This document shows positions 3,574 to 26,250 of a stretch of 29,363 nucleotides of DNA, piece after piece. A program made the translations under genes and the position numbers. Location: positions 1 through 29,363 of IMG/VR virus record IMGVR_UViG_3300001848_000161; one strand, written 5' to 3'. This DNA comes from a virus. The notes under the pieces were generated by a model. It saw nothing but the letters and a program-made list of their open reading frames with translations. It had not been told where the DNA came from and searched no databases. Position 1 is the first letter of the stretch. Every line of letters begins with the position of its first letter.

Positions 3574-4938
3574 ATGTCAAAGAACAATAAAAAGCGTTCT
3601 TTCGATCTGATCGAAGACATTACTGTTGAGGAGCTGCGTAATGATGGACTCGTTGAAGAGGTTGCAGTTTCTGGCGAGGAACCATCAAAGAAAAAGGATG
3701 AGACCACAGCTGCTGTCGCTACAGATGCCGTAAAGGCAGATGCTGAGACAAAGGCAGCCATTGACGCCTCCGCTTCGAAAGAAGCTGATGCGGGAGCACT
3801 TGCTGGATCCGGTCCCGGACCAACAACTCCTGTGTCTGGCGAAAATGACAAGGCAGTCGCAGCAGTCGATGCAGCAGGCAATGCAGCACCGCAGGCTGAG
3901 GAGCCAAAGACAAAGGCAGGACTCATCAACGCAGTGTATCAACAGCTCGTCAATATGAAGACTGAGGATGTTGCGAACGTCTACAGCACTCTGGTCAATC
4001 CAGAGCTGCCACCAAAAGCAGAGGAGCCATCTCCAATGCAGACGGGCGACAATAGCACAGACAAAGGCCTTCAAAAGGAAGAAGACGATTCAGAGAAGAA
4101 AGACGAAGCAGATGCCGATGAGGCAGATGCTAAAGATGAAAAGGGCGGCGAAGAAGACGATAAGGACGAGAAAAACAAGGACGACGACGACAAGGACGAT
4201 GCAGATGATATGAAGGAAGGCCTGAATGTCCTGCTGCAAGCCGAAAAGTCACTCACCGAGGATTTCCGTTCTAAGGCTTCTAGCCTGTTTGAGTCGGCAG
4301 TAAAGGCAAAGGTTGCCACCGAAGTGACCAAGATCGAGGAAAGCTACAAGGCACGTCTCAACGAGGAAGTTGCTACCGCAACTAAAGACCTCGCAGAGAA
4401 GGTCGAGAGCTATCTTGACTACGTTGTCAAGACCTGGATGGAGGAAAACAAGGTTGCTATCGAGTCTGGTCTACGCACCGAGATTGCAGAGAACTTCATT
4501 GATTCTCTCAAGAACGTGTTCGTGGAATCCTACATTGAAGTTCCTGAAGGCAAGGAAAACCTGGTTGACTCGCTCAACACGCAGGTTGCCAAGCTTGACG
4601 AGCAACTTCTGAAGGCTACCGAGGCAAACATCAAGCTCAACGAATCCGTCGCTAAACTTCAGCGTGACGCAGTCATCGCAGAAGCTTCTAAGGATCTCGC
4701 TTCAACCGAAGCTGTTAAACTCAATTCGCTTCTGGAAGACACCACATTTGATGATGTCGAATCCTTCACAAAGAAGGTGCAGACCATCAAGGAAGGTTAC
4801 TTCCGTAAGACTGTCAGTGCAAAACCAACCCAAACCGCAGTGGAAACCACCCTCAATGAAGCCGACGAACAAGCCGAGCTTTCACCATTGATGGCAGCTG
4901 TTTCTTCCGCAATCTCGCGCACGCTTCCCAAGAAGTAA
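3574..4938 (+). CDS. 22: Prohead core scaffolding protein gp22 with long acidic insert
   Basis: This 454-residue protein lies between protease and capsid, the invariant place of gp22, the main internal scaffold that gp21 later digests. The C-terminal half (about 215-425) is the conserved coiled-coil scaffold region, with segments such as AEKSLTEDFRSKASSLFESAV, LDYVVKTWMEENK and ENFIDSLKNVFVESYIEVPEG. The N-terminal half is unlike T4 gp22 (about 269 residues). It contains an Ala-rich stretch (45-110), a short conserved helical segment (about 115-141) and a low-complexity Asp/Glu/Lys tract at about 169-212. The insert accounts for most of the extra length. The reading frame is intact and there is no Shine-Dalgarno sequence. 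Confidence 0.93.
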   Translation: MSKNNKKRSFDLIEDITVEELRNDGLVEEVAVSGEEPSKKKDETTAAVATDAVKADAETKAAIDASASKEADAGALAGSGPGPTTPVSGENDKAVAAVDAAGNAAPQAEEPKTKAGLINAVYQQLVNMKTEDVANVYSTLVNPELPPKAEEPSPMQTGDNSTDKGLQKEEDDSEKKDEADADEADAKDEKGGEEDDKDEKNKDDDDKDDADDMKEGLNVLLQAEKSLTEDFRSKASSLFESAVKAKVATEVTKIEESYKARLNEEVATATKDLAEKVESYLDYVVKTWMEENKVAIESGLRTEIAENFIDSLKNVFVESYIEVPEGKENLVDSLNTQVAKLDEQLLKATEANIKLNESVAKLQRDAVIAEASKDLASTEAVKLNSLLEDTTFDDVESFTKKVQTIKEGYFRKTVSAKPTQTAVETTLNEADEQAELSPLMAAVSSAISRTLPKK

Positions 4939-9589: not shown

Positions 9590-10231
9590 ATGGAAACAAC
9601 TGCCACTTCATCAGTCGCACCAGCAAAGAAGCGCTCTTCTACAAAGAAAGAAGGCGAGCATTACGTCAACAACAAGGAATTCTCTCAGGCGGTCGTAGAT
9701 TACGTCGCCTCTGTAAAGCTCGCCGAGAAGAACGGCACGGCTGTTCCTCGCATTCCAGAATACATCGGGCGCTGCTTCCTGCGTATCGCAGAAGGCCTTT
9801 CGCACAAGCCAAATTTCATTCGCTACACCTATCGCGAAGAGATGGTGATGGATGCAGTAGAAAATTGCGTGAAGGCTTGCCCGAACTACAACGGCACGGC
9901 TGCTACACGAACCGGATCTCCGAATGCATTTGCGTACTTCACGCAGATCTGCTACTTTGCTTTCCTGCGGCGTATCGTCAAAGAAAAGAAGCAACAAGAC
10001 ATCAAGATGCGCTACATCGAGCATGCTGGGATCGAGGACTTTCTTTCTAATCCAGATGAGCTCGAGGGATTCGGTCAGCTTGCTGGTTACGAGAGTGGTT
10101 TCATCGATGTGCTCAAGAAGCGCATTGACCGCGTGAAGGTAAAAGACAAGAAGATCAAAGACTTCAAGAAGAAAGAAAAGGAAAGCCTGGAATTTTTCTT
10201 CGGCACAGATGAAAATAGCCATTTTGAATGA
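9590..10231 (+). CDS. 55: Late-transcription sigma factor gp55
   Basis: The 213-residue product matches gp55, the minimal sigma factor that directs host RNA polymerase to TATAAATA late promoters (T4 gp55 has 185 residues). The clearest signature is NAFAYFTQICYFAFLRRIV (112-130), corresponding to sigma region 2 with its core-binding and promoter-melting helix. The N-terminal 25 residues are a Ser/Lys-rich extension. The C-terminal ESLEFFFG (198-205) resembles the short hydrophobic-acidic peptide with which T4 gp55 grips the sliding clamp gp45. The final 23 bases overlap gene 47. It has its own promoter at 9521-9548 and no Shine-Dalgarno sequence. Confidence 0.93.
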   Translation: METTATSSVAPAKKRSSTKKEGEHYVNNKEFSQAVVDYVASVKLAEKNGTAVPRIPEYIGRCFLRIAEGLSHKPNFIRYTYREEMVMDAVENCVKACPNYNGTAATRTGSPNAFAYFTQICYFAFLRRIVKEKKQQDIKMRYIEHAGIEDFLSNPDELEGFGQLAGYESGFIDVLKKRIDRVKVKDKKIKDFKKKEKESLEFFFGTDENSHFE

Positions 10232-22058: not shown

Positions 22059-24596
22059 ATGACATTCTACACCTCTGTTATTCGTCACGGTAAACATATC
22101 CTTTACCGCGGCTACAAAGATGGAGTCAGAGTTAAACAAAAGATCTCCTTCAAACCAACTCTGTTTCGCCGTGCTGCTTCTACTAATTTGTCTAGCGGTT
22201 GGGTGACGATGCAGAATGAAAAGGTTGAACCGATAAAGTTTGACAGCCCGTATGCTGCAAACGAGTTCATCCGTTCTCAAGAAAATCTGATGCAGCCTTG
22301 CTGGGGTAATGCACGCTGGACTGCTCAGTTTATTCAGGAAATGTTTCCGGATGAAATTCATTTTCAGCGCGATTTGCTGCAGGTGTGCAGTATCGACATC
22401 GAAACTCGTTCGGATGATGGCTTTCCGGACATCAATAATCCCACACAGCAGATCCTCGCAATCGGTTTGAAAAACAGCGCCGAGGATTGCTTTCATTTGT
22501 GGTGCGTCAAGCCATTTGATCCAGCTAACAAAGTAATTAGCGGCCGCGTCGAGGTTCATCAGTTCATCGACGAGGAATCGATGCTGCGTGACTTTCTGAA
22601 CTGGTGGTCTACTCCTGCTAATACTCCAGACATCATCACCGGCTGGAACAGCCGCTTGTTCGATGTGCCGTACATTTACAATCGGTTTGTTCGTCTGTTC
22701 GGCGCGGATGTCGCAAACAATCTTTCGCCTTGGGGTATCTGCAAATCTGAATCTTTCAACTACAAAGGTCGTCAATCTACCTTCATCGATCTTATCGGTA
22801 TTGCGCAGCTTGATTATCTTGATCTATTTCAAAAGTTTACCACACATACTTACGGCAACCAAGAATCCTACAGGCTTTCGCATATTGCTAAGGTTGTGCT
22901 GGGTGATGATAAGATTCAGTATAACGGCACGCTGCAAGAACTGTATGACCGTGATCCGCAGTTGTTCTTCAACTATAACTTGAAGGACGTCGAACTGATC
23001 GAACGCTTTGAGGACAAACTCGGTCTGATTACTCTTGCGCTGACGATTGCGTATATTGGCGGTGTCAACTATGTCGATACACTGGGTACCACTGCGATCT
23101 GGGACTCGATCATTTACCGCGATCTGTGCAAGCGCAAGGTCACGATTCCAGCAACTGCTGTCAAAGAAAAGACTGAATACCCTGGCGGTTATGTGAAGGA
23201 TGTGATGATCGGCAAGCACGACTGGGTATGTTCTTTTGACGTAAACTCGATGTACCCAAATCTGTTCGTGCAGTACAATATGTCTCCGGAAACGATCATC
23301 GGTACCGAGAATGACATTACTCCTGGGATCGATGTGGAAATGCTGCTTGCTGATAAGCCATTCACGCCAGTACATCAGACAATCATGGCTGCTAACGGCG
23401 TGCATTTCCGTGCTGATGTTCAAGGCGTGATTCCGCGAATGGTTGAAGGTATTTACAATCAGCGCGTGGCACTCAAGGCCTCAATGATTGCTGAAAAGAA
23501 ACGCCTTGAAACTATTCCGAAGACTGACAAGACTGCTCGCGCTGCGTGCGAACGCGAAGTTTCGCGCCTTGAAAATCATCAGATCGCCGTCAAGATCTTG
23601 CTGAACAGTTTGTACGGCGCCTGCGGTAATGCATACTTCCGTTACTTCGACATTCGTATTGCTCAAGGTATCACGCTAACCGGTCAAACCGCTATTCGTT
23701 CTGCTGAAAAGGCAGTCAATGCTTTTCTGAACAAGACACTTAAAACTGATAGTGTTGACTACGTTATTGCTATCGATACCGATTCGCTATACGTTGCTAT
23801 GGACAAAATCGTGCAGATGTTTCAGCCCAAGAATCCCTGCAAGTTCTTGGATGAATTCTGTAAGAAGGCTGTTGAGCCTATCCTTGAAAAGGCCATGGAT
23901 GATCTGGCAGCTAAGACATTCTGTCCAAAGAATCGTATGGTAATGAAGCGCGAGGCAATTGCTGATCGCGGTATTTGGACTGCTAAAAAGCGCTACATTC
24001 TGAACGTGCTGAATAATGAAGGTGTGCAGTATGCCGAGCCGAAGATCAAGATGATGGGCATCGAGGCAGTCAAATCATCCACGCCAGAAATATGCCGTGA
24101 TGAAATGTATCAGATGTTCAAGCTCATTATGTCTGGCACTGAGCAGGATGTTCAGGACGCGATTGCAAAGTTCAGGTTACGGTTCCGCAACTCTGCTCCT
24201 GATGAAATTGCTTTTCCGCGAGGTGTGTCTGATCTAGACAAATGGATTGACGAAAAGGCTTTGGAAAATGGACGCCGCTGGTGGCCTGCCATGGGTACTC
24301 CGATTCATGTGCGCGGTGCTCTTTTCTACAACCGGTTATTGCTAGAACACAAACTGACTAGAAAGTATCAGTTCATAAATAACGGTGACAAGATCAAATT
24401 TGTCTATCTGAACTCAGTCCATGAACACGTCCTTTCTTTTCCTGAGGCTTTGCCAAAAGAACTGAAAGAAATTGCTCAGCAAATTGACTATGATACTCAA
24501 TTTCAGAAAACGTTCCTTGATCCTCTCGAATCTATTTTGTCCGCGATTAAGTGGCGTGCTGAAAAAGTTGCAAGCCTGGAAGATTTTTTTTCTTAA
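22059..24596 (+). CDS. 43: DNA polymerase gp43 (family B)
   Basis: The frame opens at 22017, but ATG 22059 (MTFYTSVIRHGKHILYRG) fits the family start, giving 845 residues against 898 in T4. The 3'-5' exonuclease motifs are SIDIETR (D113, E115), GWNSRLFDVPY (N196, D202) and YNLKDVELIERF (Y306, D310). Polymerase motifs are A DVNSMYPNL (394-402), B KILLNSLYG (512-520) and C DTDS (573-576), followed by AKKRY (642-646). The C-terminal SLEDFFS resembles the clamp-binding peptide. All catalytic residues are present and there is no intein or split. It begins its own transcription unit after the hsp20 terminator. Confidence 0.97.
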   Translation: MTFYTSVIRHGKHILYRGYKDGVRVKQKISFKPTLFRRAASTNLSSGWVTMQNEKVEPIKFDSPYAANEFIRSQENLMQPCWGNARWTAQFIQEMFPDEIHFQRDLLQVCSIDIETRSDDGFPDINNPTQQILAIGLKNSAEDCFHLWCVKPFDPANKVISGRVEVHQFIDEESMLRDFLNWWSTPANTPDIITGWNSRLFDVPYIYNRFVRLFGADVANNLSPWGICKSESFNYKGRQSTFIDLIGIAQLDYLDLFQKFTTHTYGNQESYRLSHIAKVVLGDDKIQYNGTLQELYDRDPQLFFNYNLKDVELIERFEDKLGLITLALTIAYIGGVNYVDTLGTTAIWDSIIYRDLCKRKVTIPATAVKEKTEYPGGYVKDVMIGKHDWVCSFDVNSMYPNLFVQYNMSPETIIGTENDITPGIDVEMLLADKPFTPVHQTIMAANGVHFRADVQGVIPRMVEGIYNQRVALKASMIAEKKRLETIPKTDKTARAACEREVSRLENHQIAVKILLNSLYGACGNAYFRYFDIRIAQGITLTGQTAIRSAEKAVNAFLNKTLKTDSVDYVIAIDTDSLYVAMDKIVQMFQPKNPCKFLDEFCKKAVEPILEKAMDDLAAKTFCPKNRMVMKREAIADRGIWTAKKRYILNVLNNEGVQYAEPKIKMMGIEAVKSSTPEICRDEMYQMFKLIMSGTEQDVQDAIAKFRLRFRNSAPDEIAFPRGVSDLDKWIDEKALENGRRWWPAMGTPIHVRGALFYNRLLLEHKLTRKYQFINNGDKIKFVYLNSVHEHVLSFPEALPKELKEIAQQIDYDTQFQKTFLDPLESILSAIKWRAEKVASLEDFFS

Positions 24597-24637
24597 AAGA
24601 TTGCAATTCAACCGTAACTCGCAATAATAAACACACT

Positions 24638-25804
24638 ATGTCCTATACATTCACCAAAGAAGATGAAGGTTATTCCGGAAGTTATTCTTACGTTCCGCCA
24701 AAAACAATCACGCACACAGTAGAAGCAGATGATGCTGATCTTTATCAGCTGTGCGCTGCTTTCGAAGACTTTCTCCGCGGTTGCGGATATGTTTTCGATG
24801 GTCATATCGAGGTCGTCGAAGACGAAACAGATGAATCAGCAGTTGCTCAAGGAGACAGCGACAATGATACCGCCACGTTCGATCCTAACGGCAGCGATCA
24901 GGCTGAGTTCGATTTCTCTGAAGATACTCAGGACGATGAAGCTATCGCTAAGGTCGAAGATACTGTAGCAGGTATCGTTTCTTCTGATCCGGTTCCAGCT
25001 GCTGTTATTCCTGCTGTTGTAGACAGCGTGGTATCAAACAGCCCAAGTGCTGATGTTCCAGAAGCTGCCGCAGTTGTAGCAAATGTCGTGCAGACTGTTG
25101 CTGCGTCAGATGCCGAAACGCATCCTGCTGTTGCTGCCGCAGTCACTGCTGCTGTTGCCGCTGTTGCTAATTCTGATCCGGACACAGTCACAGATCCTGA
25201 GGCAGTCACAGCTGCTATCACTGATGCAGTTGCTGCTACTCCTGCAATCAAGGATCCTGCTGTTGCTCAGGCCGCATCTGATGCAGTCGCTGATGTTATT
25301 AAGGCTGCTACTGGTACCGCTCCTGCGCCTGAGGTCGTCAACCAAGTCGCTGATGCTGTGGCTACTTGCCCAGTTGAAACCGTTGTTGCAGACATCGTGC
25401 AGGCACCAGCTGTTCCTTCCCCTGATGTTCCAGCAGTCGTGAACGATGTGGTTGCTGTCAGTCCCAGTTCAGGAACTCCCGCAGCCGAAACAGTCGTCAG
25501 CAATGTCGTCGAGGCCGTCGTTTCAGCCGAACCAGAAACCCATCCTGCAGTGGTTGAAGCAGTCTCTGCCGCGGTGGCTGCAGTGGTAAATGCTGATCCT
25601 GCTGTCGTCACAGATCCTGCTCAGGTTACTGCAGCAATCACTGCCGCTGTTGCACAGGTAAATCCTCCTGCAACCGCAGAAGAACAGGCTAAGGTTACTG
25701 CCGCTGTCGCAGACGTCGTAGCTAATGCCACGAATGTCGATCAGGTTACTCCTGAGGTTCAGCAACAGATTGCACAGGCAGTCGCTGCTACTCCTACTTC
25801 CTGA
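24638..25804 (+). CDS. Unknown protein: short conserved-looking N-terminus plus Ala/Val-rich tandem repeat domain
   Basis: This 388-residue protein has a distinct N-terminus (1-60), MSYTFTKEDEGYSGSYSYVPP then VEADDADLYQLCAAFEDFLRGCGYVF, which reads like a small globular phage protein. An acidic linker follows (about 61-105). From about residue 106 to the end the sequence is Ala/Val/Pro/Asp/Thr-rich, with two copies of a 140-residue unit. Marker segments HPAV and VTDP.. VTAAIT recur exactly 420 bases apart. There are no aromatic residues, signal peptide or membrane anchor in the repeat part. No family is recognised for the repeat. It could be an extended helical spacer, a virion-associated fibre or an anchoring protein; the location after gp43 gives no clear clue. 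Confidence 0.75.
   Translation: MSYTFTKEDEGYSGSYSYVPPKTITHTVEADDADLYQLCAAFEDFLRGCGYVFDGHIEVVEDETDESAVAQGDSDNDTATFDPNGSDQAEFDFSEDTQDDEAIAKVEDTVAGIVSSDPVPAAVIPAVVDSVVSNSPSADVPEAAAVVANVVQTVAASDAETHPAVAAAVTAAVAAVANSDPDTVTDPEAVTAAITDAVAATPAIKDPAVAQAASDAVADVIKAATGTAPAPEVVNQVADAVATCPVETVVADIVQAPAVPSPDVPAVVNDVVAVSPSSGTPAAETVVSNVVEAVVSAEPETHPAVVEAVSAAVAAVVNADPAVVTDPAQVTAAITAAVAQVNPPATAEEQAKVTAAVADVVANATNVDQVTPEVQQQIAQAVAATPTS
25004..25423 (+). repeat. Coding tandem repeat unit 1 (140 codons)
   Basis: First copy of a 420-base in-frame unit. Its reference points are VIPAVVDS at the start, HPAV at 25121 and TDPEAVTAAIT near 25192. Confidence 0.75.
25424..25804 (+). repeat. Coding tandem repeat unit 2 (127 codons, shortened)
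   Basis: Second copy, starting DVPAVVND, with HPAV at 25541 and TDPAQVTAAIT near 25612. All matches are offset by 420 bases from unit 1 without indels over most of the length. It ends about 13 codons short, at the stop. Confidence 0.75.
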
Positions 25805-25830
25805 TTGCATCGAATCAGCATCCATATATT

Positions 25831-26250
25831 ATGATGACTCAAATGGAAAATAAACCAACAGACTGGTGTCAGGACATTGCCGAAATGCACACTAAGTTTG
25901 GCGTCAATCCAGCAGTGCGTCAAATGGATGCTGATAAGCTCAAGGCCTTCTTGGAGTTTCGTATTCGATTTCTCCAAGAAGAACTTGATGAAATGAAGAA
26001 TACCCATGAAATGGAAGATGTGACCGATGCACTGATTGATTTGTGCGTGGTTGCTATCGGCACACTGAATGCGCTTGACATAGATCCTTATCTCGCATGG
26101 AATCGTGTTCATGCTGCTAACATGGCTAAGGAAGTTGGCATCAAGGCAACGCGGCCCAATCCGCTTGGCTTGCCTGATCTGATCAAGCCTGCGGGGTGGA
26201 CTGCTCCTTCACACAAAGACAACATTGGTCTGCTGAGCAAGTTTCAATGA
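25831..26250 (+). CDS. MazG-like nucleotide pyrophosphohydrolase
   Basis: This 139-residue protein belongs by pattern to the all-alpha NTP pyrophosphatases (MazG, PRA-PH, phage relatives). FLQEELDEM (47-55) is the EExxE metal-binding helix. The next helix, MEDVTDALIDLCVVAIGTLNALDIDPYLAWNRVHAANMAKEVG (61-103), carries the acidic partner residues and the family's VHAANMAK segment. Such enzymes hydrolyse non-canonical or excess NTPs, or (p)ppGpp in some cases. Its stop overlaps the next start by ATGA. In-frame ATGs at 25831, 25834 and 25843 leave the exact start uncertain. Confidence 0.85.
   Translation: MMTQMENKPTDWCQDIAEMHTKFGVNPAVRQMDADKLKAFLEFRIRFLQEELDEMKNTHEMEDVTDALIDLCVVAIGTLNALDIDPYLAWNRVHAANMAKEVGIKATRPNPLGLPDLIKPAGWTAPSHKDNIGLLSKFQ

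Follow-up and report, generated by a model that had tools for sequence, protein, structure and literature searches.

The protein encoded at positions 24638–25804 of the viral record IMGVR_UViG_3300001848_000161 (IMG/VR; the whole stretch analysed, 29,363 nucleotides, is referred to as the window herein) consists of a small, uncharacterised domain that is widespread among T4-like phages, phrog_935 / T4-GC357, to which an orphan, probably helical array is attached. The array makes up the last 290 residues and is built from two diverged copies of a 140-residue block. We tentatively read this tail as a natural alpha-helical repeat domain made from a minimal amino acid alphabet (mainly Ala, Val, Pro, Thr, Asp and Ser), without Leu, aromatic residues or Arg and found so far in this phage lineage only; it may be one of several modules that different phages exchange at the C-terminus of a replication-cluster domain.

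Gene location and features

The open reading frame lies on the + strand, begins with ATG and comprises 388 codons, and its coordinates agree with those given in a preliminary description of this DNA. It is flanked by gp43 (22062–24596) and by a gene for a MazG-like pyrophosphohydrolase (25831–26250). The gene order of the window is T4-like: gp20-gp21-gp22-gp23, uvsW, gp55, gp47, gp46, cobT/cobS-like genes, gp45, gp44, gp62, regA, hsp20 and gp43, where gp43 and gp23 were named by PHROGs and the remaining names were taken from sequence and from the gene order of HTVC008M. Judged by capsid protein, Methylophilales phage Melnitz and the Pelagibacter phages Mosig and HTVC008M are the nearest cultivated relatives (61–62% identity); judged by DNA polymerase, it is phage C48C1 (46% identity). 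The features of the gene are as follows.

24638–25804, + strand: whole gene, 388 residues, between gp43 (DNA polymerase) and the MazG-like pyrophosphohydrolase; near-identical in contig L001
24601–24628, + strand: promoter-like TTGCAA-16-AATAAT shortly before the start codon, at chance level only
24638–24829, + strand: N-terminal phrog_935 / T4-GC357 domain, residues 1–64; predicted beta-beta-alpha, with F-x-D-F-L-[RK]-G-C-G-Y conserved
24830–24931, + strand: acidic linker, residues 65–98, with a QAEFDF motif; 11 D/E and no K/R
24932–25801, + strand: Ala/Val-rich repeat array, residues 99–388; some 14 short helices are predicted, with Pro close to where they begin
24941–25357, + strand: repeat copy 1, residues ~102–240, from the local alignment of the two halves (293 versus a shuffle maximum of 139)
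25361–25780, + strand: repeat copy 2, residues ~242–381, from the same local alignment; V/I kept at 23/26 and Pro at 7/8 positions, with codons randomised

The promoter-like sequence near the ATG was discarded as a candidate, as six such motifs were found versus 5.7 expected in shuffles, and relatives do not keep it. Rfam and tRNA scans gave no matches. Measured against gp23, the codon adaptation of the repeat gene is 0.55, similar to that of the head genes gp20–gp22 (0.51–0.59); most replication genes reach 0.39–0.48, and gp55 and the cobT-like gene 0.52. This codon usage hints that the repeat gene may be well expressed.

The junction between gp43 and MazG is a variable insertion spot (24597–25830 of the window; loci L005–L054, with gene names assigned by eye). 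It is empty in L017, L018 and L029–L036, holds a gene for the N-terminal domain in L005–L009, L013 and L047, and carries uvsX- and gp41-like genes in L019/L020, HAD-phosphatase-like and oxygenase-like genes in L037, L040 and L047, and an oxidoreductase-like gene in L039.

The tail contains two copies of a 140-residue block

Among the 290 positions of residues 99–388 there are 78 Ala and 65 Val and not a single Leu, Arg, Met, Phe, Trp or Tyr, whereas Leu and Arg account for 8.3% and 5.1% of residues in the proteins of the window overall. The tail has 27 Pro, and its charges are 37 D/E, or 13% of residues, and 4 Lys; the whole protein is net acidic (62 D/E versus 7 K/R). The preliminary description had spoken of an almost aromatic-free, Ala/Val-rich chain, and the composition proved more extreme, with Leu, Arg and Met also absent.

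When the protein was compared with itself, the best ungapped match was at an offset of 140 residues (score 272; the next-best offset scores 97). The best-offset score in 500 composition shuffles averaged 85 ± 12 and never exceeded 141. Aligned with gaps, the halves scored 293; full shuffles reached at most 139 and shuffles of 8-mer blocks at most 177 (1000 each). Random low complexity is thus ruled out, a possibility for which the preliminary description had called for a statistical test. That description had placed two in-frame 420-base copies in this gene, with an exact period and no indels at the markers HPAV and VTDP. Two in-frame copies at a 140-residue offset do exist, and no indel interrupts them through the marker peptides it used; the blocks are better placed at about 24941–25357 and 25361–25780, its second unit measures 381 nt, and a single net indel of 1 residue, located distally, shifts the offset from 140 to 141. 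A clean 22-residue sub-repeat was considered and rejected, as offsets 22 and 44 score 94–97 versus a shuffle maximum averaging 85 ± 12, which is not significant, and a hydrophobicity Fourier peak at 23.6 is not significant either.

Compared as DNA, the copies share just 57–64% identity and Tandem Repeats Finder did not report them, so the repeat is old and visible at the protein level. An independent contig from a public viral collection, L001, is 99.4% identical to the window over 8.5 kb and contains the same repeat, differing within the gene by three synonymous changes and one replacement, A336D; an assembly artefact is therefore very unlikely. The low DNA identity, the random synonymous codons and this second contig together led us to reject a recent tandem duplication or an artefact.

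The copies have diverged under selection

Codon positions 1 and 2 match between the copies at frequencies of 0.67–0.75 and 0.69–0.78, and position 3 at 0.35–0.39, which is chance level. Where Ala, Val, Pro, Thr or Gly is identical in both copies, the same codon is used in 13 of 45 cases, with 16 expected from usage. The dN/dS between copies is about 0.17–0.18, an approximate value since dS is near saturation. Judged from these codons, the duplication of the 140-residue block is old and the protein has been held under purifying selection. The suggestion of a fast-evolving domain is contradicted inside the repeat by the same ratio; what is lineage-specific is only the presence of the tail.

Conservation is uneven among residue classes. 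V/I is kept at 23 of 26 positions (baseline 0.30) and Pro at 7 of 8 (baseline 0.11), and Ala (14/28), D/E (5/14) and T/S (7/16) drift more. Constant V/I and Pro amid drifting classes are what one would expect if amphipathic helices had kept their hydrophobic face and their turns in place.

The tail is probably an alpha-helical repeat

The V/I residues of the tail follow a helical period, with a moment of 2.79 at 100 degrees per residue versus 1.65 ± 0.17 in shuffles; 0 of 1000 shuffles reach the observed value. AlphaFold2, run on the single sequence as there were no homologues for an alignment, modelled the tail as all-helical with a mean pLDDT of 46 and a pTM of 0.26; because this confidence is low, only the local helix assignment was used. 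Agreement between predicted helices peaks at exactly offset 140 (0.86 versus a mean over offsets of 0.62), which is supportive and not independent, as the copies are similar in sequence. In kind, then, the tail has both the helical periodicity and the in-register predicted helices of a helical repeat. Conserved protein positions on random codons, taken with the helical period of V/I, point to a selected, probably alpha-helical repeat rather than random low complexity. The notion of a helical spacer, raised in the preliminary description, finds partial support in the V/I period and in the weak all-helical model in register with the 140-residue period.

The tail resembles TPR-, HEAT- and apolipoprotein-type repeats in kind only, as a predicted tandem of short amphipathic helices split by turns. 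Unlike those repeats, it has no profile match and contains no Leu, Arg or aromatics, and it is organised as a 140-residue super-repeat rather than as clean units of 20–40 residues. When the repeat region was compared with the helical-repeat families in Pfam (TPR, HEAT, ARM, apolipoprotein and others), the only hit was a sub-threshold one to COMPASS-Shg1 (E 0.3).

Searches for relatives of the repeat in phages, viral contigs (three queries), genomes, plasmids, the PDB, NCBIfam and PADLOC returned none, as did a search of eight related phage records run without a positive control. Since these searches either filtered low complexity, corrected for composition or relied on exact seed peptides, the negatives are weaker than usual and distant Ala/Val-rich relatives may have escaped them. 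Literature searches yielded nothing on the repeat protein. Within the collections searched, the repeat is restricted to one lineage.

The N-terminal domain belongs to phrog_935 / T4-GC357

The preliminary description had seen a compact, ordinary N-terminal domain, and this view is borne out. Residues 29–71 match positions 19–61 of the 73 in the PHROGs profile phrog_935 (unknown function; E 1.5e-5), and an iterated HMM spans residues 1–64. With 27 sequences, AlphaFold2 predicted a beta-beta-alpha fold at a pLDDT of about 80 over residues 1–60. An HMM built from the cyanophage members described below, together with a scan of viral contigs, gave about 28 distinct homologues, and 26 homologues from viral contigs were aligned; among the 27 aligned sequences F45, G50 and Y51 are invariant, and L46 and C49 are conserved in at least 90%. 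When the L002 relative was used as query, 262 cyanophage records were recovered from an annotated collection, with individually weak E-values. The cyanophage members are stand-alone hypothetical proteins of 70–88 residues, noted as T4-GC357 in Syn19 and S-SSM5, and the Syn19 protein itself matches phrog_935 at E 6.6e-37. The N-terminal 64 residues are the same domain as in Syn19_050 and SSSM5_050 of the cyanomyoviruses, with F-L-[RK]-G-x-G-[YF]; unlike these members, which are about 70–88 residues long and without a repeat, the present protein continues into a 290-residue Ala/Val array. At 388 residues it falls outside the lengths of its homologues (~54–187 residues) and of the short proteins of this kind (about 50–190 residues), and we therefore describe it as carrying a phrog_935 domain rather than as an ordinary member.

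A fold search found no solved structure resembling the N-domain, and the viral library returned uncharacterised phage proteins, several of them from cyanophages. Ubiquitin-like sequence matches in the PDB were set aside, as the E-value was 7e-4 for polyubiquitin only and 1.7 for single ubiquitin and the fold search gave them no support; SepF-like Pfam matches were weak and few.

Homologues of the N-domain lie between gp44 and gp62 in L077–L080, L094 and L095, near an SSB gene and a deoxyribonucleotidase in L082, and beside a dNMP kinase gene in L073. Genes for replication and nucleotide metabolism are thus neighbours of the domain in many phages, which supports a possible role near either process. 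The N-domain was absent from HTVC008M, Melnitz and the C48C1 stretch examined, and no such gene occurs at the gp43–MazG junction of many relatives; it is thus accessory. It also occurs at 3962–4225 of L097, a contig of 59 kb from a Saprospiraceae MAG bin, near the gene for a large phage-like protein, and this may therefore be a phage contig.

The repeat was probably added to the C-terminus in this lineage

In the loci nearest to the window, L005/L006 (74% gp43 identity) and L007/L008/L009/L013 (69%), the syntenic gene between gp43 and MazG shares its place, N-domain and acidic linker with the gene studied here, together with a similar F-[DN]-F motif, but its product ends with an acidic tail of 50–78 residues after the domain and lacks the repeat. 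At 48% gp43 identity, L047 has only a 58-residue N-domain protein directly before MazG. The L005 protein ends in QTEFNFNKETQ, and here QAEFDFSEDTQ is followed by the repeat; this alignment looks good by eye but does not clearly exceed composition shuffles (p 0.12), and linker alignments to relatives have shuffle p values of 0.12–0.17. Across the roughly 28 N-domain homologues the tails are unrelated, and those longer than 10 residues have an A+V fraction of at most 0.20, versus 0.45 here. In L069 (2387–2785) and L071 (4001–4504) the homologues end in a zinc-ribbon-like CPVCKLD...C.D..CG, which indicates that the N-domain carries exchangeable C-terminal modules. As the nearest relatives' syntenic gene and the other homologues are without the repeat, the simplest reading of these sequences is that it was gained C-terminally in this lineage, with loss in all others as the alternative; the suspicion that the repeats were added later to the N-domain is thus probably correct.

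The short motif [KED]-F-[DNS]-F recurs in otherwise diverged acidic tails of N-domain proteins (window 24899–24931, L005, L009, L082 and L093), as QAEFDF, QTEFNF, QQKFDF, APDFSF and QPKFSF. It is possibly a binding peptide. The idea that the linker F-x-F motif is a clamp-binding peptide was set aside (linker alignment shuffle p 0.12–0.17). Elsewhere in the window, the C-terminal regions of gp43 (24560–24596), ending in ASLEDFFS, and of gp55 (10180–10231), with SLEFFFG and then TDENSHFE, contain what we take to be likenesses of the sliding-clamp-binding peptides of T4-like phages.

Proposed function

The reading that we favour, at close to an even chance, is that of an intracellular protein of the replication cluster whose helical tail oligomerises, or scaffolds or spaces the N-domain. 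The N-domain (residues 1–64) would be a beta-beta-alpha module of old origin, and its most likely role is to bind some component of the replication machinery or of its surroundings; as the domain is uncharacterised and matched no PDB fold, this partner is a guess. An acidic flexible linker would join it to the roughly 290 residues added in this lineage, and this tail would have grown when a 140-residue block was duplicated long ago. Some seven short amphipathic alpha-helices are predicted per block; Val/Ile would line one face of them and Ala the rest, with Pro close to where they begin. Most likely they pack against one another or against those of another copy as a repeat rod or bundle, through which the tail could oligomerise or space the N-domain within the infected cell; as the AlphaFold2 model of the tail has low confidence (mean pLDDT 46, pTM 0.26), this tertiary packing is one that we infer. 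The absence of Leu and aromatics speaks against a packed tail; most stable helical repeats use Leu and aromatics as their core.

The extreme low-alphabet composition with its 27 Pro, the acidity of the tail (37 D/E, 4 Lys) and the low AlphaFold2 confidence would also fit an acidic spacer that is largely unfolded or helical only at times, an entropic bristle that chiefly provides bulk, solubility or charge and in which sequence matters through composition only. We consider this unlikely, as composition alone requires neither the strong conservation of V/I and Pro positions while codons are randomised nor a helical period of V/I. Net acidity (62 D/E, 7 K/R) and accessory, lineage-specific tails on a common N-domain, zinc-ribbon-like in L069 and L071, are likewise features that an acidic helical host-takeover protein might have, with the tail as the variable part that binds a host target, for example as a DNA mimic or inhibitor. 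However, acidic residues account for just 13% of the tail and do not form a conserved class between the copies (5/14 kept), and the protein does not match PADLOC defence models, which leaves this role improbable.

Just as improbable, in our view, is a virion or assembly protein whose helical tail would coat or scaffold the phage head or tail or be packaged in it, with the adjacency to gp43 incidental. Codon adaptation similar to that of gp20–gp22 and hsp20 would agree with it, but the neighbourhood of the gene and of homologous domains is one of replication and nucleotide metabolism, and no structural-protein family was matched in Pfam, PHROGs or NCBIfam. An earlier proposal of a surface or anchoring protein finds no support in the same neighbours and family searches or in the hydropathy profile, which shows no clearly membrane-spanning segment, the KD19 maximum being a borderline 1.64 at residues 110–128. 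That borderline value and the Ala/Val-rich amphipathic helices could nevertheless suit a tail that lies on membranes and thereby tethers the N-domain at the inner membrane. Helices at the interface of acidic bacterial membranes tend to be furnished with basic residues, and the tail, with 4 Lys, no Arg and no aromatic anchors, makes such tethering very improbable.

Implications

The repeat has an unusual composition and a clear evolutionary story, and in the collections searched it is confined to one lineage. If the favoured reading of a replication-cluster protein with a helical tail is true, a phage made a 70-residue protein of the replication cluster modular by means of a large helical array that draws on few amino acid types, and the added array then stayed under selection. 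The uncharacterised phrog_935 / T4-GC357 domain, present in hundreds of cyanophage records and bearing exchangeable tails, deserves attention. Should the tail prove to be folded without a leucine or aromatic core, protein design would gain a useful example from nature.
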